A stretch of DNA of 64,000 bases from Methanobrevibacter sp. (GTDB taxonomy: Archaea > Methanobacteriota > Methanobacteria > Methanobacteriales > Methanobacteriaceae), in assembly GCA_017434555.1 (NCBI GenBank), contig JAFRFB010000055.1, positions 1-64,000 of the forward strand, given 5' to 3'. Both the position numbers and the translations under genes were made by a program. The notes below the pieces were generated by a model. The model saw only the letters and a list, made by a program, of their open reading frames with translations, made no database searches and was not told the DNA's origin. Numbering within the stretch: position 1 is the first letter of the stretch; each line of letters begins with the position of its first letter. Shown one piece after another: positions 1 to 15,197 of the stretch.

Positions 1-1725
1 ACTGGTGATGTTATTATTTTAAACACTACTGCTTATAGTGCTGGTGGTGCTACTAACAGAGCTGACGAATTTGAAGTTGATTTAGCTAATGGAACTGTTA
101 ACACTGCTTTATTATATGTTTCATATAATTGGGATAAAGCTATTGACGGTGACTTCAACTCATGGAACACTACATTCAATGGTGAAGCAATCACTCCTTT
201 ATCTTATTACCGTGACCAATCCAATTTAGGAACTACTTATGCTAAGTACGGATACGGTTTAGTTGTTTATGATGTAACCGATTTGGTTGTTGATGGTACA
301 AATACCTTTGAATTAAATAAAACTTCAGGAAATGCTGCTGTTTATCCAAGTAACTTAATTGTTTTAACTGATAAAGAGAATTCAACAGCTTTCAAAACTG
401 TTTATCTTTATGAAGAAGCTGATTTATTATCCAAATCTTACAATAAGAATTTGGATGCTGGTTTCTTCACTGAATTTGGTATAGAAGAAGGTAATGCTAC
501 ATTATATGTATTTGCTGCTAGTGCTCAAGCTGGTGAAGGTAACATAATTGTCAATGATGAAAATTATACTGATGTTTGGAGCGGAACAAGTAATTCACTT
601 GAAACCTTTAGTGCTCCTATCAACGGAACTGATGTTTCTGTTTACTTTGAAGCAACCGGCGCTACCATTTTAGCTTTACACCAAATGATTGTCGTTGAAC
701 ATGGTGATATTTTGGTGGTTGAGGTTTATGATGTTGAAAAATATTATATGGGATCTGAAAGATTTTATGTAAGCGTTACAAACTTCCTAGGTACTCCTGT
801 AGTTAATCAATCCGTAGACATTACTATCAATGGTGTAACTTACACCAGAAGTACTAATGAAAATGGTACAACAAGCATTCCTCTTGGTCTTAACAGTGGA
901 GAATACGATGTAATTACTGTTGTTGGGAATAAGACATTTGTTAGTTTTGTAACTATATTGCCAACTGTAAACGGTGAAGATCTCGTAAAAACGTTCAGAA
1001 ACGCAACCCAGTACTCTGCAACATTTATCGACTCAGAAGGTGAATTATTACCTGAAGGTACTGAAGTAACATTCAATATTAATGGTGTAATGTACAACCG
1101 TAAGACCAATGAAAACGGTACTGCCAAATTAAATATTAACTTAGAACCAGGAAGCTACATAATTACCGCAACTAACCCTGTAACCGGTGAAATGTATTCT
1201 AATAATATTACAGTCTTACCTGTTATTGAAAGTAATGACTTAACAAAATATTATAGAAATGATTCCCAATATGTCGTTACTCTTTTAGGTGATGATGGTA
1301 AACCTGTTGGTGCTGGTGAAAAAGTTACATTTAACATTAACGGTGTATTCTACACACGTACAACTAATGAATCAGGCCAAGCTCAACTAAACATTAACTT
1401 AGAAGCAGGAACATACATAATCACAGCAATGTACAAAAATTGCAGTGTAGCAAATACTATTACTGTATTGCCAATATTGTCTGCAAATGATTTGAATAAG
1501 ACATATGGCGAACCTGATCAATTCGTAGCAACACTTGTTGACGGTCAAGGAAACCCTTATGCAAATCAGAAAGTAGAATTCAACGTTAATGGTGTCTTAT
1601 ATTACCGTACAACCGGTAGTGATGGTCAAGCTAAGTTAAACATTAACTTACAGCCTGGTGAATACATCATAACTTCTAGTTTTGAAGGATGTAACATTGC
1701 AAACAAAATTACTGTAAAAGGATGA
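1..1725 (+). CDS. DUF3344 adhesin-like surface protein, C-terminal part (5' end outside window)
   Basis: The reading frame is open from the first base and lacks a start, so the gene begins upstream. The visible part is the second half of a DUF3344 module (TGDVIILNT, then YNWDKAIDGDFNSWNTTF) followed by four Ig-like repeats of about 80-85 residues, starting near nt 730, 970, 1231 and 1480. Each repeat carries F(N)INGV-Y-RTTN and KLNINL-PGEYIIT signatures. It is a close paralogue of the next gene, which shows what the missing N-terminus should look like. Such proteins are exported and sit on the pseudomurein wall. Ligand binding is not known. Its position ahead of the CobN/ExbB genes suggests a surface receptor or capture role, which is inference. 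Confidence 0.85.
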   Translation, partial: TGDVIILNTTAYSAGGATNRADEFEVDLANGTVNTALLYVSYNWDKAIDGDFNSWNTTFNGEAITPLSYYRDQSNLGTTYAKYGYGLVVYDVTDLVVDGTNTFELNKTSGNAAVYPSNLIVLTDKENSTAFKTVYLYEEADLLSKSYNKNLDAGFFTEFGIEEGNATLYVFAASAQAGEGNIIVNDENYTDVWSGTSNSLETFSAPINGTDVSVYFEATGATILALHQMIVVEHGDILVVEVYDVEKYYMGSERFYVSVTNFLGTPVVNQSVDITINGVTYTRSTNENGTTSIPLGLNSGEYDVITVVGNKTFVSFVTILPTVNGEDLVKTFRNATQYSATFIDSEGELLPEGTEVTFNINGVMYNRKTNENGTAKLNINLEPGSYIITATNPVTGEMYSNNITVLPVIESNDLTKYYRNDSQYVVTLLGDDGKPVGAGEKVTFNINGVFYTRTTNESGQAQLNINLEAGTYIITAMYKNCSVANTITVLPILSANDLNKTYGEPDQFVATLVDGQGNPYANQKVEFNVNGVLYYRTTGSDGQAKLNINLQPGEYIITSSFEGCNIANKITVKG

Positions 1726-1750
1726 TTTTTTCATCCATTTTTCTTTTTTT
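1720..1750 (+). terminator. Hairpin plus U-run terminator containing the stop codon
   Basis: GGATGA (1720-1725) pairs with TCATCC (1731-1736) across a T5 loop, followed by a T-rich run. The TGA stop codon lies inside the 5' stem. The downstream paralogue ends in the same structure. Confidence 0.6.
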
Positions 1751-1791
1751 TAGTAATACTTTTTTTAGGTTTTTTGCCATTTTAGTAATAC
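1751..1791 (+). promoter_or_regulatory. Paired TAGTAATAC boxes upstream of the second adhesin
   Basis: Two identical 9-mers TAGTAATAC lie at 1751-1759 and 1783-1791, with starts 32 bp apart (about three helical turns). The second copy directly precedes an ATTAATTATATT stretch that contains the likely TATA element of the 1858 gene. The same pair, spacing and flank occur upstream of the CobN-like gene. A dimer-of-dimers repressor or activator site is inferred; the regulator is not identified. Confidence 0.6.
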
Positions 1792-1857
1792 ATTAATTAT
1801 ATTTATATATTATTTTTTTGAAAAATTTCTATTGTAAAATAATTGGGGGTTTTACAA

Positions 1858-4800
1858 ATGAATTTTAAATTTTTTATGTCATGTTTTTTTATTTTATTTT
1901 TAATCATGATAACTTCAGGTACTGTTTCTGCTGATGAAGCACCGGCTATGAGTTTAGTTGATTATGGAACGGTATCCGGAGACGTAGTTATTTATTCTTC
2001 AAATCCGTTTACAGAAACTGGAAGTTTGGAATATGCTATTCCCGAGGATGTTAGCCAGATTCAATCAGTTGATGTAATTGTCAGTTCTTATTCAGGTAGC
2101 GGTGCTCCTACTTATGCGTTATATTCTAACATTACATTGGATACGATTAATGGATTGGAAATATTAGGTTATGAGGATTTATATTGTGATAGAAGTATGA
2201 CCAATGATCCTACTGTTTATGTAATCAATAATCATACTACAAAACAGTTCTCTGACTATCAATCCACTTTTGATATTACGGATAAAGTGAAAAATCTGTC
2301 TTCTGGAGATACTATAAAGATATCTGTTAAAAATACACAAAAAGAAGGTTATAATTTCGATGGTAGAATTAAATTAATAGCTTTAGTATTCGCATATGAT
2401 GATGGAGATAATGATAAGATTACCTATTGGCTGAATGTCGGACAGTCCTGGACACAATCTTCTCGTTCTAACTTAATCAGTACAAAGAATTTCAAAGAAG
2501 AATATGATGAAGTAACATTTGAGAATATTGCTTTGTCTTCCTATAATGCAGTAGGTAGAATTAATAATGAATTGTTATATGATCCAATTGTTGAAAAGCA
2601 AGGAAGTTATTTCATATACGATAAATGGGATATTACTGATAGTTTTGAAATAGGTATCGACACGAATTACTCATATAAACCATCATCAAGCGGTTATGGC
2701 TCTTTCAAATCTGTCGTTCAACTATTAAAAGTAGATAAATCATATAATGAAATAATATCCACCATAACTCCGGAATATAAAAATACAATATATGCTGGTG
2801 TTTCAAATAATTTAACCATGGAAATTTTATCCAAAAAGGACATTAATGCAGTTGTAAAATTATATAACAATGAAAATCTTGTCTTTTCAGAAAATGTTAT
2901 TTTAACCGGTGGAAGCAGTGAAAAACTATATTTCGTTGACTTTACAATCAGGCCAGTAACTTCCAACACTGTCTATGGAGAAAACAACAAATATGAAAAT
3001 TATTCTCTTGTTATAGAAGATTTGGAGGGTAATGTTTTAAATTCAACCAACGTTTCATATGTCGTTTTGTATAATGGTAATTTGGGTAAGGATTATGAGT
3101 ATCCTACCGCTAACCCGACTTTAAGGGAATTTAATATTACTGGTGATGTAATTGTTTTAAATACAAGTGAATATAGTGGTAGCGGGGTTACTACAAGAAA
3201 CGATATCTTTAATGTTGATTTGAATGATGGTGATGTTAGTAAAGCATTATTATATGTTCCTTATACCTGGGATAAGGTTGTAAGCGGTGACTTCAACACC
3301 TGGAACACAACATTCAATAATCAGACAATTGTTCCTATCGCATCCTATCGTGACCAATCTAACTTGGGCACTTATGCAAAGTATGCTTATGGTTTAATAG
3401 TTTATGATGTAACTGGATTGCTTTTAAATGGAGCAAATACCTTTGAATTAAATAAAATTGCTGATAATACTGCTGTATATCCAAGCAACTTAATAGTATT
3501 AACAGATAATGAAGAAAGTGTCATCAATAAAACGGTTTATATCTTGGAAGAAGCGGATTTATTGTCAAAAACCAATAATAAGAATTTGCCTGCAGGATTT
3601 AACACTACTTTTAAAATAGTGGACGGCAATGCAACATTATATGTATTTGCTGCAGGTGCCCAAAAGGGTGAAGGAAACTTAATTATCAACGATAAAAGTT
3701 ACAGTGATGTTTGGAGTGGAACCAGCCAGTCATTTGACACATTTACTGCAAGCATTGATTCTGAAAATATTAATGTTTACTTTGAATCAACAGGCTCTAC
3801 AATTTTAGGCCTTCACCAAATGATTGTTGTTGAACATAGCGATTATTTAATAATCAATGCTCCGGATGTTGAAAAATATTATAAAGGACCTGAAAGATTT
3901 GTTGTAACAGTCACTGATTACCAGCAAAATCCAATGGCCAATAAATCTGTAGATATCACAATTAATGGCGTTACATATGCTAAAACAACCAATAATGAGG
4001 GTATTACAAGCATTGCTCTTGGAATTGACAGTGGAATATATAATGTAACAACCACAGTTGATAATACCACAGTTAACTCAGTTGTAACAGTTTTACCGAC
4101 TGTAAATGGAAGCGATGTTGTTAAGGTATTTAGAAACGGAACCCAGTATTATGCAACATTTAAAAATTCGGATGGTAGTTATTTGGATGATGGAAGTGGA
4201 GTCCAATTTAACATTAACGGTGTATTGTATGACCGCAAGGTATCCGGCAATAAAGGTCTTGCAAAATTAAACATCAACCTTCAACAGGGCGAATATATAA
4301 TTACTGCAACAAACCTCAAAACCGGTGAAAGATCTTCCAACATCATTACAGTTATTCCTAGAATTATTGAAAACAATGATTTAACCAAATATTACAGAAA
4401 TGCTTCACAATACACTGTAAAATTAATTGGTGATGACGGTAATGCTGTCGGTGCCGGCGTTGATGTAACCTTTAACATTAATGGTGTATTCTACACACGT
4501 ACAACAAACGCATCAGGAATAGCTAAATTAAACATTAACCTGGGACCTGGACACTACATTATCACAGCTGCATATGCGGACTGTATGGTATCAAATAACA
4601 TTGAAGTATTGCCGGTATTATCTGCAAATGACTTAACCAAGAAATTCGGTACTTCTGATCAATTTGTCGCAACTCTCGTTGACGGTCAAGGTAAAGCTTA
4701 TGCAGACCAGAAAGTAGAGTTCAACATTCATGGTGTATTCTATACCCGTACAACTAATAGTGATGGTCAGGCTAAGTTAAATATTAACTTACAACCTGGT

Positions 4801-4866
4801 GAATACATTATAACCTCTTCTTATAATGGAAGCAATATAGCAAATACAATTAAAGTTACTGGATGA
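1858..4866 (+). CDS. DUF3344 adhesin-like surface protein with four Ig-like repeats
   Basis: 1002 residues from ATG 1858, which follows GGGGGT. An in-frame TTG at 1843 is possible but would place the SD inside the gene. Residues 1-26 are a signal peptide (hydrophobic core, cleavage after VSA). Two DUF3344-type beta modules follow (about 30-400 and 425-665), then four Ig-like repeats near 670, 751, 838 and 922. There is no C-terminal membrane segment or LPxTG motif, so wall attachment must be non-covalent or through the repeats. It is paralogous to the preceding partial gene over the shared length. It lies 150 bp upstream of the CobN-like gene and shares its promoter boxes, so a joint role in substrate capture is inferred. 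Confidence 0.88.
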   Translation: MNFKFFMSCFFILFLIMITSGTVSADEAPAMSLVDYGTVSGDVVIYSSNPFTETGSLEYAIPEDVSQIQSVDVIVSSYSGSGAPTYALYSNITLDTINGLEILGYEDLYCDRSMTNDPTVYVINNHTTKQFSDYQSTFDITDKVKNLSSGDTIKISVKNTQKEGYNFDGRIKLIALVFAYDDGDNDKITYWLNVGQSWTQSSRSNLISTKNFKEEYDEVTFENIALSSYNAVGRINNELLYDPIVEKQGSYFIYDKWDITDSFEIGIDTNYSYKPSSSGYGSFKSVVQLLKVDKSYNEIISTITPEYKNTIYAGVSNNLTMEILSKKDINAVVKLYNNENLVFSENVILTGGSSEKLYFVDFTIRPVTSNTVYGENNKYENYSLVIEDLEGNVLNSTNVSYVVLYNGNLGKDYEYPTANPTLREFNITGDVIVLNTSEYSGSGVTTRNDIFNVDLNDGDVSKALLYVPYTWDKVVSGDFNTWNTTFNNQTIVPIASYRDQSNLGTYAKYAYGLIVYDVTGLLLNGANTFELNKIADNTAVYPSNLIVLTDNEESVINKTVYILEEADLLSKTNNKNLPAGFNTTFKIVDGNATLYVFAAGAQKGEGNLIINDKSYSDVWSGTSQSFDTFTASIDSENINVYFESTGSTILGLHQMIVVEHSDYLIINAPDVEKYYKGPERFVVTVTDYQQNPMANKSVDITINGVTYAKTTNNEGITSIALGIDSGIYNVTTTVDNTTVNSVVTVLPTVNGSDVVKVFRNGTQYYATFKNSDGSYLDDGSGVQFNINGVLYDRKVSGNKGLAKLNINLQQGEYIITATNLKTGERSSNIITVIPRIIENNDLTKYYRNASQYTVKLIGDDGNAVGAGVDVTFNINGVFYTRTTNASGIAKLNINLGPGHYIITAAYADCMVSNNIEVLPVLSANDLTKKFGTSDQFVATLVDGQGKAYADQKVEFNIHGVFYTRTTNSDGQAKLNINLQPGEYIITSSYNGSNIANTIKVTG

Positions 4867-4890
4867 TTTTATCATCCACATTCTTTTTTT
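4861..4890 (+). terminator. Hairpin plus U-run terminator containing the stop codon
   Basis: GGATGAT (4861-4867) pairs with ATCATCC (4871-4877) over a TTT loop, then a T7 run. TGA 4864-4866 is the stop codon, so the stop is part of the stem, as in the upstream paralogue. Confidence 0.6.
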
Positions 4891-4930
4891 AGTAATACTT
4901 TTTACCCTATTTTTACTTAAATAGTAATAC
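4890..4930 (+). promoter_or_regulatory. Paired TAGTAATAC boxes upstream of the CobN-like gene
   Basis: TAGTAATAC at 4890-4898 and again at 4922-4930, starts 32 bp apart exactly as at 1751-1791. ATTAATTATATT follows the second box in both promoters. This implies that the adhesin and the chelatase share one regulator. Confidence 0.6.
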
Positions 4931-5015
4931 TTTGATTAATTATATTAATAATAATTGTTCAATATATTATTTGAAAGGGATATTTTTAAAAATTCTTTTC
5001 AAAGGAGGTTTTAAT

Positions 5016-8000
5016 ATAATTAAGAGTAAACAAAATACTTTTAATTTAAAGAATATAGCAGTTTTAGCTATCGTTTGTGTTTTATTTATGTGTAGTTTAA
5101 ATATTACATTTGCTATGGATAATAATACAAATGTCCAATTGGATGATTCTAATGTGTTAAATCAGGGATATGAAAAATCAATGCTCCTTATTAGTGATAA
5201 TAGTGGGACAAATATTCTTGATTCAGCAGCAAATGAAGTATTAAAAAATTATTCAAATGTGGATATCCAAGTTAGAAGTTCTGCTCAGATTTCTACAATG
5301 AATGAGGATGAATTATATCAATTGGTTAATAGAAGTGATATTGTCATTGCGAATTGGCTAACAACTGATGCGGATGCTGTATTTACAAATCTATTAATTA
5401 AATATCCTGATTTGTCCAATAAGGAAATGTTTTTAATATTGGAAACATCTTCTTCTTCACAACTTAAAACATTCAACTTAGTTAAAAATTCTACTATAAA
5501 CTATCATAAAATCTTCAATGGTGATGAATATACAGTTGACTTTTTAAATAGTTATTTCCAGACTACAAAAAGAGGTCAATCATATACTACAGTAAATGAT
5601 TATCTCACAAATGGAAAAGGTAATAAAGTTGATTCTAAATTTAACCAGGCAGTTTTATATAAAAACTGCAATGATAAAGAAAATCAAATTAATCAAATAT
5701 TATGGGCATTAAGTACCTGCGGTTTCAACTGCCAATACAATGCACCTGTTTTCTACCAGTCCTATCAATATGGATTGTATCGTGACAGGTACATGTCTTT
5801 GGAAGAATACATGAAACAGTATTTCGATTCTTCAAGAAATTACACTGTAGGTTTACTTGAAAGTACAATGTATGTGTCCAGTGCATCATTGGAACCTTAT
5901 TATTCATTAATTAAATCTTTGGAATCTAAAGGAGTTAATGTAATTCCTGTTGTTGCTGCAGGAGGTTCAGATGATCAGTATAAGGTAATGATTGAGTACT
6001 TTACTAATGCTCCAGATTATGAATCATTTTTAAAAGATTCTTCAAAATACCAAAGCAATGTCGATGCTATCATTTCAATGCCTGCATATGGTATTGGAGG
6101 AACATTATTTGACAGTGTAACAGAGTATTTTGAAACAGCAGGCGTACCTGTATTCAGAGCAGTACATTCAGATTACGTAAGTAATGAGGAATGGGAATTA
6201 AGTACTACAGGCCTTCCAGGAAACAGAAGTGACAAATGGTGGCATGTAGCTATTGGTGAAGCGCAAGGTATTATTGAAGCCACTTTTGTAGGTGGAGTTA
6301 CCAATAAGATATCAGAGACTACAGGTGCTAAATTAACCGGATACAAGTCTCATGAAACCAATATTGACTTATTTACCGACAGAATTATTTCATGGATTGA
6401 TTTAAGTTATACTGAAAATGAAGATAAAAAAATTTCATTGATTTATTATAACTATCCTCCTGGAAAACAAAACATTGGTTCAAGTTATCTTGACTCAATA
6501 ACCAGTATCTATAATCTTTTGTTAACTTTAAAATCAGAAGGTTATGATGTTGGTCAATTGCCGGATAATGTAAGTCAATTGGAAGACATGATTATCAAGT
6601 GCGGTATCAATGTAGCTACCTGGGCTCCGGGTGAATTGGAAAAACTGGCAAACAGATCCAATGTGGTTTTACTTCCTGTTAGCGAATACATGGAGTGGTT
6701 CGAAAGCTTAGAACCTATTTCCAAATTGCAGGTAGTTGATGGGCCTGTTGCATATATTGGCGAATTGTCAAGAAATGCAATAGCAATTAACTATACTTCT
6801 CCAATGGATGAAAGGTTATCCGACTGGTATGGTGAAATTGTAGCATTGTTGCCGGACAATTACACCTCTAGAGCTATCCCTATTTTGGACAATATTGTTT
6901 CAGCTCTTAAAAAATATTTAATCACAGGTCTCGAATCTGACTATGATATATTTTTAAAATACAAGCAGGAATGGTCTGATTTGGATGTGCCTGGTTTAAA
7001 TGGTTGGGGAGAAGCTCCAGGTAATATTATGACAGTCTGGAGAAATGGAACCCAATACTTTGTTATTCCGGGTTTAACCTTTGGTAATGTCTTTATTGCT
7101 CCTGAACCTCAAAGGGGATGGGAAGCAGATTCTGATGCGTTATATCACAGTACTGCCGTCAGCCCAACACACCAGTACTTGGCAGCATATTATTATTTCC
7201 AGGAATATTATTCCTCTGCCATGGTATTTGTTGGAAGACACGCAACCCACGAATGGTTACCTGGTAAGGAAGTCTTACTTTCTTCAACAGATTATGGTTC
7301 AATTGTAGTTGGTGACACTCCTCAAATTTATTTCTACATTTCAGACGGTTTAGGTGAAGGTATTCAGGCTAAAAGAAGAGGTTTTGCAGTAATGATTTCT
7401 CATTTGACTTCTCCTTTAGCTTATACTCAACTTTATGGAAATCTGACTGTGCTTGCTAACCTGATTAATGAATATGAAAATGCATTAAATCAAAGTTCAA
7501 AGGATGCACTTATATCTGAAATCAGATATATTGTGGATACCAACAACTATGTTCATTCTATGGGTATCAGCAATGAAACATTCAATAAGTTCACTGCTGA
7601 TGAGTTAATTTCCGCTGCCGACTCTTTCATTAAAACGGTACAAAATGAATTGTACACGTGGGGTCTGCATGCCCTCGGACAGAATTGGACAGATAAGGAT
7701 ATAGGACTTTCCGTATCTACGGCTTTATCACAGCAGTTCACATATAATGGAGTTACAACATCATTGTATGATGAAATAGCTAAGATAAAGTATTCCAAAA
7801 AATATGATGAACTCAATTCCCTTGAAAGGGACGTTGTGATGAATCTATCATCCAATGTTGTAATATCCTTAATCTATTATTCAAGTGAAGAGGTAGCTCA
7901 GGTAATTGGAGTAAACTCAACATCTTTGATTGCGGCATTTGATTATGCAAAATTATTCATTTCATTAATCCAGGCATCTGTTTTAAAAGAAATGGATTCA

Positions 8001-10031
8001 TTTATCGATGCATTGAATGGAAAATATATTGCTCCAGGCCCTGCCGGTGACGTATTGGATATAAATTCACTTCCAACCGGTGGCAATTTCTTCCACGACC
8101 AATCTCAGGAACTTCCAACTAAAGACGCATATGAATATGGAAGAATCCTTACTTTACTTGCTTTAGACGGTCTGACAGATGACACAGAAAAGCTAGTAAT
8201 GGGTATCTGGTGTGTTGAAACAGCAAGGGATGACGGTGCATTAATATCTGTTGTATTGTATTTGCTCGGAATGGAACCAGTTTATTCATCTTCACCAAGT
8301 GCAGGTGGATATGTCCAGGTAGGCAATGATGAAGACCATGATGATCATGAACATGATGAAGAGGTTAGTGTTGGTACTAAAACAAATCTCATGCCAAGTT
8401 ATATCAAATTAGATGATTTGGTCCGTCCCGACGGATGGGATAAAAAAAGAATTGACGTTACTGTCATAACCAGCGGTAACTTTAGGGATTTATATTCAAC
8501 ACAAGCTATTTTGATGGATAATGCATTCAGAGTAGCATTGGCCAGATCATATTTATTTATATTAAACAACAATGATTTAAAAGAAAATCCATGGTTTAAT
8601 GATATTAAAGAGGGTTTAGAACATGTTGTGGCCAGTGTAGATTATTATGGTGTTGGTAAAGAAACTTTCGAAGAGAATAATGTTGCAAAGCATTGGGTTA
8701 GTGATTTCATTTACTACAAGGAGTTAGGTTATAATACCACTTATGCAGCTGAATGTGCAATAACCCGTATCTTTGCACCGCCTAATGGTGATTATGGTGC
8801 AGGAATAGCTAAATCAGTATCTTTAAGTTGGACTTGGAATGACACTGACGAACTGTCCGATTTCTATTTGGGCAGAATGGGTAACATGTACTCCAAATAT
8901 TATTGGGGTGAAACCAATCCGTTAGTATTTGCAAGAGCTTTAAACAATACCAACGATTTGATTGTCAGCCGTAATACCAATGTTTATGGTGTTCTGGACA
9001 ATGATGATTTCTTTGATTACTGGGGTGGACTTTCAATGACAATGGCTTATGTAAATGGAAATACTCCAAAAATGAATGTATTAATGTATGGAAATAAAAA
9101 CACTCCATATACTACATCCATTGAACAGGCTATTGCAAAAGAAATCCTTACCCGTTATTCAAACCCTGAATGGATTAGCGGAATGATGCAGGAAGGTTAT
9201 AGTGGTGCTAGATATATTTCCAATAAGTTTTTAACAGATCTGCTTGGATGGTCTGTAACAAGACCTGAAGCGGTTTCAAATTATATGTGGGATGATGCAT
9301 ATAACGTTTACTTCAATGATAAGTATGGAGTTGGAGTGACTGACTGGTTAAAAACAGGAAATAATAACTATGCATTCATATCCTCTGCAGGTACATTACT
9401 GACTGCTGCCTATGAAGGATATTGGCAAACGGATTCTGCAACTTTATCCAATGTTGCTAATCAGTGGGCACAGGCTGTAATCACTAATGGTGTTGCTTGC
9501 TGTGACTGTAGCTGTGGTAATATAGCTATGATGCAATGGGCAGTTGATTTCATCAATCCAGATTTGCTTGCTAAGTTTGCAGATCAGGTTTTCCAGGCAA
9601 CGAATCATAATTTCTTTAATCCGGCTAATTTCCAAAATAATCCTAATGCAGATTCTGCAGACAGTGAAATGGATGAAAATGCAGGTTTAAACTCAACTGA
9701 TGCTGTTTTAACCAATTCCTCTTCTTCAACTTTACAGTCTGACAGCGCTACATCAGGTTCAAACAATGGAAATGCTGCAAGAGGTGTTGGTGAAACTTCA
9801 TCTGAGTCAGCTACCGCTTCCAGTTCATCTGAAATTAATGATTTGGATAATGCTGGAGATAGTGGTGCCGATTCATCATCAAGGAGTTATGAAGTTGAAA
9901 AATCTGTTTCAAGCAGCAGTACAACCACAGAAAAATCAATGTCTATACAGTTGATTATTTGTATAATCGTAATAGTAGGAATTTTTGCTATAGGTTACTT
10001 TAGAAATAAGAATAAAGAAGATGAATTTTAA
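5016..10031 (+). CDS. Secreted, membrane-anchored CobN/BchH-like chelatase (HmuS-type)
   Basis: About 1671 residues. The family covers cobaltochelatase CobN, Mg-chelatase H and HmuS proteins acting on tetrapyrroles. Unlike cytosolic CobN it has an N-terminal signal segment (about 10-34), a Ser/Thr-rich wall-spanning linker (about 1545-1640) and a C-terminal membrane helix (about 1643-1663) with a charged tail, so the catalytic body faces outward. A His/Asp insert (DHDDHEHDEE, about 1105-1115) and a Cys cluster (ACCDCSCGN, about 1494-1502) could bind metal or tetrapyrrole. The start is set by AAAGGAGG at 5001-5008: seven bases later comes ATA (5016). ATT 5019 is the next option, and a TTG at 4932 would bury the SD. 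DUF2162, ExbB-like and DUF2149 genes follow, the partners of hmuS in Bacteroidetes. The chelated metal and reaction direction are not readable from sequence. Confidence 0.82.
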   Translation: MIKSKQNTFNLKNIAVLAIVCVLFMCSLNITFAMDNNTNVQLDDSNVLNQGYEKSMLLISDNSGTNILDSAANEVLKNYSNVDIQVRSSAQISTMNEDELYQLVNRSDIVIANWLTTDADAVFTNLLIKYPDLSNKEMFLILETSSSSQLKTFNLVKNSTINYHKIFNGDEYTVDFLNSYFQTTKRGQSYTTVNDYLTNGKGNKVDSKFNQAVLYKNCNDKENQINQILWALSTCGFNCQYNAPVFYQSYQYGLYRDRYMSLEEYMKQYFDSSRNYTVGLLESTMYVSSASLEPYYSLIKSLESKGVNVIPVVAAGGSDDQYKVMIEYFTNAPDYESFLKDSSKYQSNVDAIISMPAYGIGGTLFDSVTEYFETAGVPVFRAVHSDYVSNEEWELSTTGLPGNRSDKWWHVAIGEAQGIIEATFVGGVTNKISETTGAKLTGYKSHETNIDLFTDRIISWIDLSYTENEDKKISLIYYNYPPGKQNIGSSYLDSITSIYNLLLTLKSEGYDVGQLPDNVSQLEDMIIKCGINVATWAPGELEKLANRSNVVLLPVSEYMEWFESLEPISKLQVVDGPVAYIGELSRNAIAINYTSPMDERLSDWYGEIVALLPDNYTSRAIPILDNIVSALKKYLITGLESDYDIFLKYKQEWSDLDVPGLNGWGEAPGNIMTVWRNGTQYFVIPGLTFGNVFIAPEPQRGWEADSDALYHSTAVSPTHQYLAAYYYFQEYYSSAMVFVGRHATHEWLPGKEVLLSSTDYGSIVVGDTPQIYFYISDGLGEGIQAKRRGFAVMISHLTSPLAYTQLYGNLTVLANLINEYENALNQSSKDALISEIRYIVDTNNYVHSMGISNETFNKFTADELISAADSFIKTVQNELYTWGLHALGQNWTDKDIGLSVSTALSQQFTYNGVTTSLYDEIAKIKYSKKYDELNSLERDVVMNLSSNVVISLIYYSSEEVAQVIGVNSTSLIAAFDYAKLFISLIQASVLKEMDSFIDALNGKYIAPGPAGDVLDINSLPTGGNFFHDQSQELPTKDAYEYGRILTLLALDGLTDDTEKLVMGIWCVETARDDGALISVVLYLLGMEPVYSSSPSAGGYVQVGNDEDHDDHEHDEEVSVGTKTNLMPSYIKLDDLVRPDGWDKKRIDVTVITSGNFRDLYSTQAILMDNAFRVALARSYLFILNNNDLKENPWFNDIKEGLEHVVASVDYYGVGKETFEENNVAKHWVSDFIYYKELGYNTTYAAECAITRIFAPPNGDYGAGIAKSVSLSWTWNDTDELSDFYLGRMGNMYSKYYWGETNPLVFARALNNTNDLIVSRNTNVYGVLDNDDFFDYWGGLSMTMAYVNGNTPKMNVLMYGNKNTPYTTSIEQAIAKEILTRYSNPEWISGMMQEGYSGARYISNKFLTDLLGWSVTRPEAVSNYMWDDAYNVYFNDKYGVGVTDWLKTGNNNYAFISSAGTLLTAAYEGYWQTDSATLSNVANQWAQAVITNGVACCDCSCGNIAMMQWAVDFINPDLLAKFADQVFQATNHNFFNPANFQNNPNADSADSEMDENAGLNSTDAVLTNSSSSTLQSDSATSGSNNGNAARGVGETSSESATASSSSEINDLDNAGDSGADSSSRSYEVEKSVSSSSTTTEKSMSIQLIICIIVIVGIFAIGYFRNKNKEDEF

Positions 10032-10036
10032 TTTTT

Positions 10037-10071
10037 GAATAACTTTTATAAGTTATTCATTTATTTTTTTT
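10037..10071 (+). terminator. Terminator after CobN-like gene
   Basis: GAATAACTT (10037-10045) pairs with AAGTTATTC (10050-10058), followed by a T-rich stretch. It separates the chelatase gene from the DUF2162 operon, which has its own TATA-like sequence around 10085-10110. Confidence 0.6.
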
Positions 10072-10155
10072 AGTCAATGTGAATTAATTTATATATTTAA
10101 AAGAATATAATATAAAATGTAATTGATTTTAAATTAATTATGGAGAGATTTTATT

Positions 10156-10866
10156 ATGGATATGATGAGTGTTTTATGGCAATTCGGTATTCTTGCGGCT
10201 ATACTTGTTTTTGGAATAAAAGTAGGTTTAGCATCAGGTTTGGCTAATTTGTCCAAAAAATTATTGGCATTTATCTGTATTGGATATGGTGGTGGAGTTT
10301 TATTGATTTCTGCTGTCGCATCTTTATATGCAGAGCAACTCACTCAAGCCATTTACAGTTACAATTCAATATTCTACATAATCATGGCTTTAATAATGAT
10401 TATAGCTGGTTTAATTACAATTAGGGAATATAAAGTACATGATCACAATACAAGTACCGCAACATCTCTGGCGGTCATTGCTCCATGTCCGTGCTGTTTC
10501 GGTTCAATTGTTGCAAGTATTTTAATTGTTGCTCCAACCATTGGAGTAGGTGCTTTTTATTTAAGCTGGTTTGCAGCGGCTGCATTGGTAGCGGTAATTA
10601 TCATCACATATTTCGCATCCAATATTGTAGTTAAATACACAAGTAAGCCTTATCCTATCATTTTAGGAAACTTCATGTTACTTTTAGGTGCTTACTTTTT
10701 GCTTTCAGCAATTGTAATCCCAAATATCGCAGGTTCTTTAAGTAAAGATTTCAGTAGTCTTACAATGAGTTCTCCTGAATCAGTTATTGCAATTGTTGTG
10801 ATGTTAATTGTTTTGGTAGCTCTTGGAATATTTTTAAATAAGAAAAGTAAAAGTCTATTAGATTAA
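10156..10866 (+). CDS. DUF2162 family putative transporter (HmuT-like position)
   Basis: 236 residues with about six or seven membrane helices and a short charged C-terminus. The family is annotated as predicted transporters (DUF2162). A central APCPCCFGS motif (around residues 112-120) puts three cysteines at the mouth of a membrane helix, a possible metal or haem contact. It is the first gene of a three-gene operon: the ExbB-like gene starts 15 bp downstream, with DUF2149 after it. The start is ATG 10156 behind GGAGAGAT. The same partners occur with CobN-like proteins in bacterial haem/cobamide loci, so membrane passage of a metal or tetrapyrrole product is the likely job (inference). Confidence 0.8.
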   Translation: MDMMSVLWQFGILAAILVFGIKVGLASGLANLSKKLLAFICIGYGGGVLLISAVASLYAEQLTQAIYSYNSIFYIIMALIMIIAGLITIREYKVHDHNTSTATSLAVIAPCPCCFGSIVASILIVAPTIGVGAFYLSWFAAAALVAVIIITYFASNIVVKYTSKPYPIILGNFMLLLGAYFLLSAIVIPNIAGSLSKDFSSLTMSSPESVIAIVVMLIVLVALGIFLNKKSKSLLD

Positions 10867-10881
10867 TAAAGGTGATATATA

Positions 10882-11529
10882 ATGAGTGTAAGTATACCTG
10901 GTGGAGAATATTTAACAGGTTCTTTAGATGTTATTTCACAAAGTTTAACCATTCCTGTATTGGTTATTCTTTTAATCATTGTTATAATTTCCATTGTAAC
11001 ATTGGGTGGATTAATATCTGAATATACTTCAAGAAAAAAAGTTCCGGTTGGAACAGTCAGAGATTTGATTTATGATATTAATTCAGCTGCTTCCGTTGAT
11101 GCTTTAAAAGGTATCATTGAAGGTGCGGCTATTCCTAAGTCTCAGAAAAAAGTATTAAGTGAAATCGCTAGTTCTTCCAGTTTAGACGAAAATACTAGAG
11201 AAGCTTTAGCTCGTAAACTCGTAGAACATGAAGAAGAAAAAATTGATAAGTCATTACAGAAAACTGATATTATTACACGTATCGGTCCTACATTAGGGTT
11301 AATGGGTACTTTAATTCCTATGGGTCCGGGTCTTGCAGCTTTAGGTGCAGGTGACGTTAATACTCTTGCAGAATCATTAACAGTTGCATTTAACACAACA
11401 ATTGTCGGTATCGGTTCAGGTGCTTTATGTTATGTTATAGGTAAAATCAGATCCGGTTGGTATGACCGTTATTTATCAGATTTGGATGCTTTATCAGATG
11501 CAGTTTTAGATTATATGAATAATCAGTGA
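10882..11529 (+). CDS. MotA/TolQ/ExbB-family proton channel protein
   Basis: 215 residues. A first membrane helix lies at about 22-46, a cytoplasmic helical region at about 50-130, and the signature RIGPTLGLMGTLIPMGPG near 132-150 leads into a second helix. A third helix follows at about 165-190 with the conserved AFNTTIVGIGSG segment. In ExbB/TolQ these helices form a pentameric channel that uses the ion gradient to drive ExbD-like partners. The ATG follows AAAGGTGATATATA. The DUF2149 gene begins 5 bp after the stop. There is no flagellar or TonB context here, so the motor most likely powers the outward-facing CobN-like chelatase or its substrate transfer. Confidence 0.9.
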   Translation: MSVSIPGGEYLTGSLDVISQSLTIPVLVILLIIVIISIVTLGGLISEYTSRKKVPVGTVRDLIYDINSAASVDALKGIIEGAAIPKSQKKVLSEIASSSSLDENTREALARKLVEHEEEKIDKSLQKTDIITRIGPTLGLMGTLIPMGPGLAALGAGDVNTLAESLTVAFNTTIVGIGSGALCYVIGKIRSGWYDRYLSDLDALSDAVLDYMNNQ

Positions 11530-11534
11530 TTTAA

Positions 11535-11873
11535 ATGGTTCGTAAAAAACAGAGAAGACGATCAAATCGTGTTGAAGAAGACCCAATGGCGGGTACATCT
11601 AACCTTGTTGATGCTATGCTTGTTATTGCTGTAGGTTTTCTTGTTTTTGTAATCATTAGCTGGAATATGCAGGCTATTGTTTTCAATGATGACATGACTC
11701 CAGAACAAAAACAACAAGTTATGCAGACTATTAAGAGTGTTTCAGAGGTTAATCAAGGTCAGGAATTGAATGAAACTCCAGACACTTCAAATAGTTCCGG
11801 TCAAGGTTATACTGAAATGGGTAAAGTCTATAAGGACCCATCGACAGGTAAGCTGATTATGGTAGAGGGTTGA
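11535..11873 (+). CDS. DUF2149 protein, ExbD-like partner of the proton channel
   Basis: 112 residues: a basic cytoplasmic N-terminus, one membrane helix (about 24-46), an extracytoplasmic segment and the DUF2149-type ending GKVYKDPSTGKLIMVEG. The helix begins NLVDAMLVIAVGF, strongly resembling the ExbD/TolR helix with its essential membrane aspartate; here that residue is Asp26. The topology (N-in, single pass) is the same. I infer that it is the ExbD equivalent that couples proton flow through the adjacent ExbB-like channel to an extracytoplasmic load. It lacks the full ExbD periplasmic domain, so the coupling mode must differ. Confidence 0.85.
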   Translation: MVRKKQRRRSNRVEEDPMAGTSNLVDAMLVIAVGFLVFVIISWNMQAIVFNDDMTPEQKQQVMQTIKSVSEVNQGQELNETPDTSNSSGQGYTEMGKVYKDPSTGKLIMVEG

Positions 11874-11900
11874 GCCTCTACTTCAAACATTTTTTTAACT
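11862..11900 (+). terminator. Terminator of the DUF2162-ExbB-DUF2149 operon
   Basis: GTAGAGG (11862-11868) pairs with CCTCTAC (11875-11881). The TGA stop (11871-11873) lies in the loop. T-runs follow. Confidence 0.6.
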
Positions 11901-14249: not shown

Positions 14250-15197
14250 ATGTCTAAAATTAAACGGATGAACAATCCGGAAGATACATTCATGAAGCGG
14301 CAATTCACCTATTTGGGTGACATAGCTCATGAATTCTATAATCTTCCTGGAAAATACATTGGAAGTGAATGTAATGAATATCCGAATGTAGACGGTGGAA
14401 TACCAAGAGCAGATATAGTATATGAAGTTAGGATGAAAGACGGAAGTATATTCATGATTAACATAGAGGATGAAACAAGTTATGTAAACGTGAATACTCT
14501 AAAAAAGTCATACAACTATAAAATCAACATATACTATAAGACCAAAAATCCGGTAATTAGCGTTATCACAACAACGCTTCCGGAAGACAAATGCCTAAAT
14601 GAATTATGGATTTCACCAACAGACCTTTTCAAACCATTTGTTATTTCTCTGCATGACGAAAACGCTTGGAAAAAATTAAATACTTTAATTGATAAAGCTA
14701 AAAAGCAAGAAGAATTTAGTGATATAGAAGGATTGGAGCTAATAAATTTACCCCGCTTCTGTTCTGAAAACCACCAAAAAGCCATCGAAATGATTTGCAG
14801 TGTACTTTATGATTTGAAAATTGATGATGACTATGTGAAAAATGAATTAATATATTCTATGCAATGTATGATTCACAAATACGCAAAAACAGATGAAAAA
14901 ATAAAAGATTTGGAGGAGATGATTGGATTGAGACAGGTAATGAAAAAAAGAAGCCCCGTACTTGATGCAATGGAACGCCAAGGAGTTCTAAAAGGACGAA
15001 AACAAGGAATAAAAATGGGTGAAGAAAAAGGAATAAAAATGGGTGAAGAAAAAGGAATAGAAATAGGTGAAGAAAAAGGAATTTTGAAGGTTTTAAAGGA
15101 TTTGGCTAATGAGTCATCTAACGAAAAGACTGTTGAAGAGTTGGCTGAAAAATATGGATACACCGTAGATGAAATATTAAATGCAAATATTGATTAG
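14250..15197 (+). CDS. Rpn-like / PD-(D/E)XK nuclease-family protein
   Basis: 315 residues. The N-terminal half has the nuclease-like core: ADIVYEV (about residues 50-56) and the strand SIFMINIEDET (about 68-78), matching the D...(D/E)xK-type pattern of the recombination-promoting nuclease/putative transposase superfamily, although the lysine is replaced. A helical region follows, then a glycine-rich repeat tract (G-I-K-M-G-E-E-K units, about 250-280) typical of these proteins, and a final segment EELAEKYGYTVDEILN. No function is established for the archaeal members. Three relatives occur in this window, and a duplicated 3' end follows at 15300-15373. The ATG follows AGGGGGACTGAT. Confidence 0.65.
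   Translation: MSKIKRMNNPEDTFMKRQFTYLGDIAHEFYNLPGKYIGSECNEYPNVDGGIPRADIVYEVRMKDGSIFMINIEDETSYVNVNTLKKSYNYKINIYYKTKNPVISVITTTLPEDKCLNELWISPTDLFKPFVISLHDENAWKKLNTLIDKAKKQEEFSDIEGLELINLPRFCSENHQKAIEMICSVLYDLKIDDDYVKNELIYSMQCMIHKYAKTDEKIKDLEEMIGLRQVMKKRSPVLDAMERQGVLKGRKQGIKMGEEKGIKMGEEKGIEIGEEKGILKVLKDLANESSNEKTVEELAEKYGYTVDEILNANID

Follow-up and report, generated by a model that had tools for sequence, protein, structure and literature searches.

Why should a methanogen encode a CobN-family chelatase that appears to be exported, and why between surface proteins and the genes of an ExbB-type motor? The question is raised by the first 11,873 nucleotides of a 64,000-nucleotide stretch of Methanobrevibacter sp. 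DNA (assembly GCA_017434555.1, contig JAFRFB010000055.1, positions 1 to 64,000), the whole of which is called the window below. We consider it somewhat better than even (probability about 0.55) that the genes here belong to a motor-and-client system found throughout Methanobacteriota, this locus being one of its copies, by which cells lacking an outer membrane acquire metals at their surface. The elements of this reading that come from the sequences themselves are a conserved gene cassette, homology to the HmuU and HmuV proteins of Bacteroidota, export and anchor helices, a DUF3344 fusion, a common C-terminal tail, and operators at sister loci; the docking of the tail, the direction of the chelatase reaction, the substrate and the route of entry are what we infer from them.

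All genes of the locus lie on the + strand in a single run (1-11873) with short gaps: DUF3344, DUF3344, CobN, DUF2162, ExbB, DUF2149. A first-pass annotation of the same DNA had described this run, and Pfam matches to every gene bear it out; its conservation across many genomes excludes a chance arrangement. As the window starts where the contig starts, the first DUF3344 gene is cut at its 5' end. The features are as follows.

1-1725, + strand: DUF3344/Ig-like surface protein, 5' end cut (Pfam DUF3344 E 2e-32, Big_1 E 3e-14)
1843-4866, + strand: second DUF3344/Ig-like surface protein (Pfam DUF3344 E 2e-49; hydropathy)
5004-10031, + strand: putative exported, membrane-anchored CobN-family client, ribosome site at 5004-5009 (Pfam CobN-Mg_chel E 6e-215)
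5055-5111, + strand: predicted CobN signal or N-terminal membrane helix (hydropathy 2.56)
7233-7256, + strand: GRHATHEW motif, containing the counterpart of the catalytic His538 of HmuS (aligned with HmuS and cytosolic CobN)
8985-9029, + strand: YGVLDNDDFFDYWGG motif, with Asp in place of HmuS His1209 and Glu1212 (alignment with HmuS and cytosolic CobN)
9879-9902, + strand: SRSYEVEK box of the client tail (tail profile)
9939-10001, + strand: predicted C-terminal membrane helix ending GYF(R), common to FmdE-type and beta-helix clients (tail profile)
10156-10866, + strand: DUF2162, seven-helix membrane protein, with a CPCC motif at 10480-10503 (Pfam E 1e-67; alignment; hydropathy)
10882-11529, + strand: ExbB/TolQ-like motor subunit, HmuU homologue (Pfam MotA_ExbB E 2e-11; hhalign to HmuU E 4e-36; conservation)
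11535-11873, + strand: DUF2149, HmuV homologue (Pfam E 1e-22; hhalign to HmuV probability 97; invariant residues)

The three genes at the 3' end form a real cassette. Among 96 genomes of the phylum Methanobacteriota, DUF2149 was found in 89, DUF2162 in 88 and CobN in 84. DUF2162 lies on the same strand and within 2.5 kb of at least 126 of the 150 listed DUF2149 genes (0.3 expected), and among the matches listed at least 38 genomes have a CobN no more than 9 kb away from DUF2149; the exported CobN thus keeps company with DUF2162, ExbB and DUF2149 in other genomes, as the first-pass annotation had supposed. In 39 motor neighbourhoods, fetched from several genera, DUF2162, ExbB and DUF2149 follow one another in nearly constant order, and the upstream position varies: about a dozen have CobN there, others a different large exported protein or no related gene. 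The presence of CobN and DUF2149 is also correlated (83/6/1/6 for both, DUF2149 only, CobN only and neither; Fisher p 7e-6, a value weakened by common ancestry and incomplete assemblies).

The proteins of this cassette resemble a motor known from another setting. The archaeal ExbB is 33% identical to HmuU, and the threonines of its MotA_ExbB domain are strongly conserved (Thr143 in 98%, segment 11284-11331; Thr172/173 in 93%, segment 11386-11427). DUF2149 has an ExbD-like layout, with a basic N-terminal tail, a single helix and a C-terminal MGKVYKDPSTGKLIMV hairpin-like motif (11817-11864). The Asp26 of the helix segment 11601-11642, invariant in 40 archaeal sequences, is kept in HmuV, which has in common with DUF2149 the basic tail, a 'DP', the Asp-bearing helix, an 'NM' and the hairpin-like motif. 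Judged by their sequences, ExbB is a homologue of HmuU, and DUF2149 of HmuV. Between DUF2149 and ExbD the profile match is not significant (hhalign probability 4%).

The comparison with the haem operon hmuYRSTUV (naming from PMC10434189) was extended to 20 Bacteroidota loci fetched with an HmuS fragment, which, where complete, run in the order TonB-receptor-sized gene, HmuS, membrane protein of about 230 residues, ExbB-like, DUF2149-like. The parallel to hmu drawn at first pass stands for CobN, ExbB/HmuU and DUF2149/HmuV, three inner parts out of four, which follow the same order, and for the membrane helices at both ends of the CobN-family protein; it fails for the fourth part and for the receptor. 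A membrane protein does occupy the HmuT slot, but DUF2162, which had been counted as an hmu component, shows no profile similarity to HmuT (hhalign probability 2%) and occurs in none of 40 Bacteroidia genomes, both of which speak against the identification DUF2162 = HmuT. HmuT itself is assigned to no Pfam family. AlphaFold models of both are helical bundles of moderate confidence, and a PDB search with them gave weak, generic transporter matches only. Neither the TonB receptor HmuR, whose absence had already been remarked, nor the haemophore HmuY has a family member among the scanned locus genes, and the DUF3344 proteins stand in their place.

The CobN-family protein has one helix at its N-terminus, a signal or membrane anchor, and one membrane helix at its C-terminus, which follows some 95 residues of Ser-rich linker and precedes a short charged tail. 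Its ORF (open reading frame) is listed from a TTG at 4932 to 10031; the true start is probably an ATT at 5019, which follows a GGAGGT ribosome site and would yield a product of 1670 residues. Because the signal helix is N-terminal and the membrane helix follows the Ser-rich linker at the C-terminus, the chelatase body should face outward, and hydropathy, with terminal helices at both ends, upholds the outward-facing, anchored chelatase first proposed for this gene. Cytosolic CobN and ChlH share its fold and family, whereas the protein here differs in being exported and anchored, in lacking an ATPase partner gene in its operon and in its second active-site motif.

Its closest solved relative is HmuS (9d26, E 1e-89), a haem de-chelatase that frees iron with NADH, with ChlH and CobN ranking behind. 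By alignment, the counterparts of HmuS His538, which stands in HFG(T/A)HG, and His506 are kept (GRHATHEW, LYHST). Elsewhere HmuS LSLDHxxEFMGG has become DNDDFFDYWGG, His1209 and Glu1212 being replaced by Asp, and the haem ligands of the head-neck site, Met79 and His254, are Leu and Ala at the aligned places (residue roles from PMC12583661). Ten CobN proteins, eight of which adjoin a motor, form a well-supported clade with a signature of its own (GRHAT[H/Y]EW, DNDDFFDYWGG) and a Cys at the place aligned to HmuS Ser1014; HmuS falls near this clade with weak support and on long branches. Since Met79, His254 and His1209 are not conserved, the term 'archaeal hmu', as far as alignment can tell, is valid for the motor and does not extend to haem, which was dropped as the default substrate.

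An ATT start behind a strong ribosome site was seen in about 14 of 33 tail-client genes (the window's at 5019, and others in L062, L063, L071, L073, L132, L120, L127 and L136), at a place where orthologues or paralogues have ATG. If these starts are real, the signal peptide is missing from database N-termini, and rare-start control of client genes is possible. The motor-linked CobN is divided over three ORFs in genome G088 (L039:5898-10826); in G095 its frame has nine stops, and it may be decaying or recoded in that genome.

The tail of the motor-linked CobN proteins follows the pattern KSYEVSK, Ser linker, membrane helix, GYxR, with a variant box in three of them. A profile made from the tails of 14 CobN proteins alone also matched, at E 1e-12 to 6e-5, the tails of FmdE-type proteins (about 950-1000 residues, with FmdE domains), and a third client type combines a beta-helix ectodomain with the same tail. 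This tail is present in 56 of 60 genomes at 1-12 copies each; G093, which we take to be M. thermautotrophicus, has one motor and 11 tail copies. Seven genomes yielded no motor, of which five have no tail, one a marginal match (E 1e-3, in a 100-residue ORF) and one, an assembly in 490 contigs, three tails. Because the tail tracks the motor in this way, with presence in nearly every genome that has a motor, many copies per motor, and absence or marginality in six of seven motor-less genomes, it is most likely the part that docks on the motor. The arrangement of one motor with many tail-tagged clients is a new element, missed by the first-pass annotation. HmuS has a box of its own, KGVVMKKEEL, before its last helix, which matches the archaeal tail weakly (profile probability 59) and may be likened to it as an analogy.

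The DUF3344 proteins appear to be working partners of the chelatase. Their genes lie 5' of CobN in several genera, and in two other genera (L042, L135) DUF3344, CARDB and CobN form a single polypeptide; as fusion is better evidence than neighbourhood, this supports a joint action of the two parts, and makes the suspected link between adhesin and chelatase stronger than had been guessed. The protein at 1843-4866 has a signal peptide and, by hydropathy, no C-terminal membrane helix. In M. ruminantium, mru2047, which was annotated as BchH, has N- and C-terminal membrane helices and was chosen for vaccine peptides, is numbered beside the adhesins mru2048 and mru2049 (PMC2812497).

What the system may acquire is suggested by sister loci, operators and published proteomics. 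The neighbours of FmdE-type clients, also in the genome to which the window belongs, are CbiM (E 1e-42) and a pair of small proteins that carry HPGHG and HGVDVT motifs close to the N-terminus. Upstream of nine of 18 FmdE-type clients stands a 28-bp dyad, GTAATA-N16-TATTAC (six exact; controls mean 0.2, maximum 2), and a one-mismatch form precedes three of 17 CobN genes. Each of the four Methanobrevibacter-group genomes with exactly one exact dyad has that sole genome-wide site upstream of an FmdE-type client. Genome-wide, exact dyads do not exceed the reversed control (10 versus 13 sites); for these, position alone is telling, and not number. NikR operators are inverted repeats of 27-28 bp (PMC545781), and the dyads at FmdE-type clients, by sequence, have NikR geometry. 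Like CbiMNQO and NikMNQO transporters of the energy-coupling factor (ECF) type, the sister loci thus combine CbiM and small accessory proteins under NikR-like operators, but CbiQO ATPase parts were not seen adjacent, and DUF2162-ExbB-DUF2149 with an FmdE-type surface protein is found there instead. One such locus in the window's own genome (L120:4570-9575) has an FmdE-type tail client divergent from CbiM and an HGVDVT protein, a one-mismatch NikR-like site between them, and no recognised CbiQO ATPase beside these genes.

The proteomic link runs through G088, presumably M. marburgensis, in which exactly three ORFs make up the CobN that precedes the motor and adjoins DUF2162 and ExbB. M. marburgensis MTBMA_c10550-10570 is a three-gene CobN chelatase, once guessed to insert nickel (PMC3087415), and CobN1 and 'Transporter MTBMA_c10530' increase when nickel is limiting (PMC12350162). 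Because the three ORFs match c10550-10570, MTBMA_c10530 should be ExbB (or DUF2162), by tag order; by this route the ExbB of the locus would rise under nickel limitation in M. marburgensis. Together with the replaced HmuS residues, the sister loci, operators and proteomics favour nickel or cobalt over iron, although no feature of the window itself points to one metal. Of the substrates first proposed, a tetrapyrrole or metal, haem becomes less likely with the replaced HmuS ligands, and a nickel or cobalt link is gained.

These observations would fit the following mechanism. ExbB and DUF2149 would form a proton (or sodium) motor of the ExbB/ExbD type, in the HmuU/HmuV family, with DUF2162 as its usual membrane partner. 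The clients would be large exported proteins whose tail, from YEV box through Ser linker and membrane helix to GYxR, most likely docks on the motor as the TonB helix does on ExbB/ExbD. Here the client would be an outward-facing protein of chelatase fold (CobN/HmuS family), acting with the DUF3344 surface proteins and capturing a metal complex of nickel or cobalt, perhaps as a tetrapyrrole (F430 or corrinoid). In cells with no outer membrane, the force of the motor would open the client or drive metal release rather than pull a plug from a porin, and the freed metal might enter by way of DUF2162 or of some other carrier, for example CbiM. A sharper proposal, to which we give somewhat less than even odds, is an archaeal version of TonB logic: one ExbB/DUF2149 motor would serve changeable receptors of chelatase fold, FmdE fold or beta-helix through the YEV tail, and the chelatase client would pull nickel or cobalt from external tetrapyrroles or chelates. 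TonB-ExbB-ExbD shares with the archaeal system an ExbB-family channel with conserved Thr segments, a small partner whose single helix has an invariant Asp at its start and, apparently, one motor for many clients; it differs in that the archaea lack both TonB and an outer membrane, and that membrane helix and box are part of the client. The archaeal locus is likewise set apart from hmuYRSTUV by its many client types per motor.

Several points weigh against the motor-and-client reading. Some motors have neither a neighbouring CobN nor a tail client, and G008 has a motor and no tail; the profiles of DUF2149 and ExbD do not match significantly. The nickel link of this locus is carried over from sister loci and from a different genus: the window holds 10 two-mismatch matches to the nickel-type operator against 8 expected and no closer one, the promoter of the operon may precede the start of the contig, and none of the four exact dyads in the window's own genome, nor either of the two in G088, stands at a client gene. 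The NikR assignment comes from operator geometry, and c10530 was equated with ExbB from tag order, not from a record.

The alternative that survives best, though unlikely, is the salvage of whole tetrapyrroles, in which CobN would bind corrinoid or F430 that reaches it intact from lysed neighbouring cells, and the motor would drive the import of the ring rather than of free metal. Chelatase-fold proteins do bind tetrapyrroles (PMC12583661), some body residues lining the ring site are kept, and methanogens need both F430 and corrinoids; yet the carrier found with sister clients, CbiM, is one for metal ions, and a scan of the window gave no Rfam match, to a cobamide riboswitch or any other RNA. 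A true archaeal hmu, in which the exported CobN strips iron from haem like HmuS and the motor powers haem delivery, is a shade less probable. HmuS as best solved relative, the HmuU/HmuV homology with its operon order, and the retained His538 and His506 equivalents speak for it; the replaced haem ligands and active-site residues, the lack of an HmuY, HmuR or detectable HmuT counterpart, and the separate signature of the motor-linked CobN proteins speak against. We regard as slightly more doubtful again a TolQR-like role, in which the motor would move or tension surface adhesins and the cell wall and metals would be incidental. It would explain why beta-helix surface proteins are also tailed, why DUF3344 adjoins and fuses with CobN and why one motor copy adjoins a NosD-like beta-helix protein, but CobN and FmdE-type clients, CbiM neighbours, NikR-like operators and the response to nickel limitation (PMC12350162) indicate metals. 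Biosynthetic metal insertion, as in aerobic B12 synthesis, has family membership in its favour and is very improbable, because insertion by CobN/ChlH needs ATP-dependent partners encoded alongside (PMC12583661), the protein here is exported, and a CobN without export signals is encoded elsewhere, in L041. The motor-and-client reading remains the one we prefer.

The open-access literature searched, most subscription papers lying outside the search, holds hmu papers, annotation tables and single mentions and no description of this archaeal system. The use that archaea make of their many HmuS/CobN homologues has been called unclear, complete hmu operons being absent there (PMC12583661), as is the rest of the operon in M. 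barkeri (PMC10846266); ExbB/D of M. thermautotrophicus were taken for secretion proteins in a proteome study (PMC6528648). The archaeal homologues are now tied to an HmuU/HmuV-type motor, to a shared tail and, via sister loci, to nickel and cobalt. The question thereby becomes testable in Methanothermobacter, and a possible function is offered for the unassigned nickel-limitation proteins of PMC12350162; nickel supply sets the levels of F430 and hydrogenase in methanogens. M. ruminantium mru2047 had already been selected for vaccine peptides when no role was known for it (PMC2812497).

The window's own genome contains a second, divergent motor set (L155:4433-7944: DUF2162-like, ExbB, DUF2149) with a NosD-like beta-helix protein, adjoining what appear, named by eye, to be formate dehydrogenase and formate carrier genes. 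In the window, the cassette is followed 3' by genes for a TFIIS-type Zn ribbon, a protein with two transmembrane helices and a rubrerythrin, which as far as can be told lie outside it. Further on, an ORF at 14250-15197, which we take to be reminiscent of Rpn/PD-(D/E)XK transposase-like proteins, has, towards its C-terminus, a series of KxGEEKGI(E)xGEEKG repeats.

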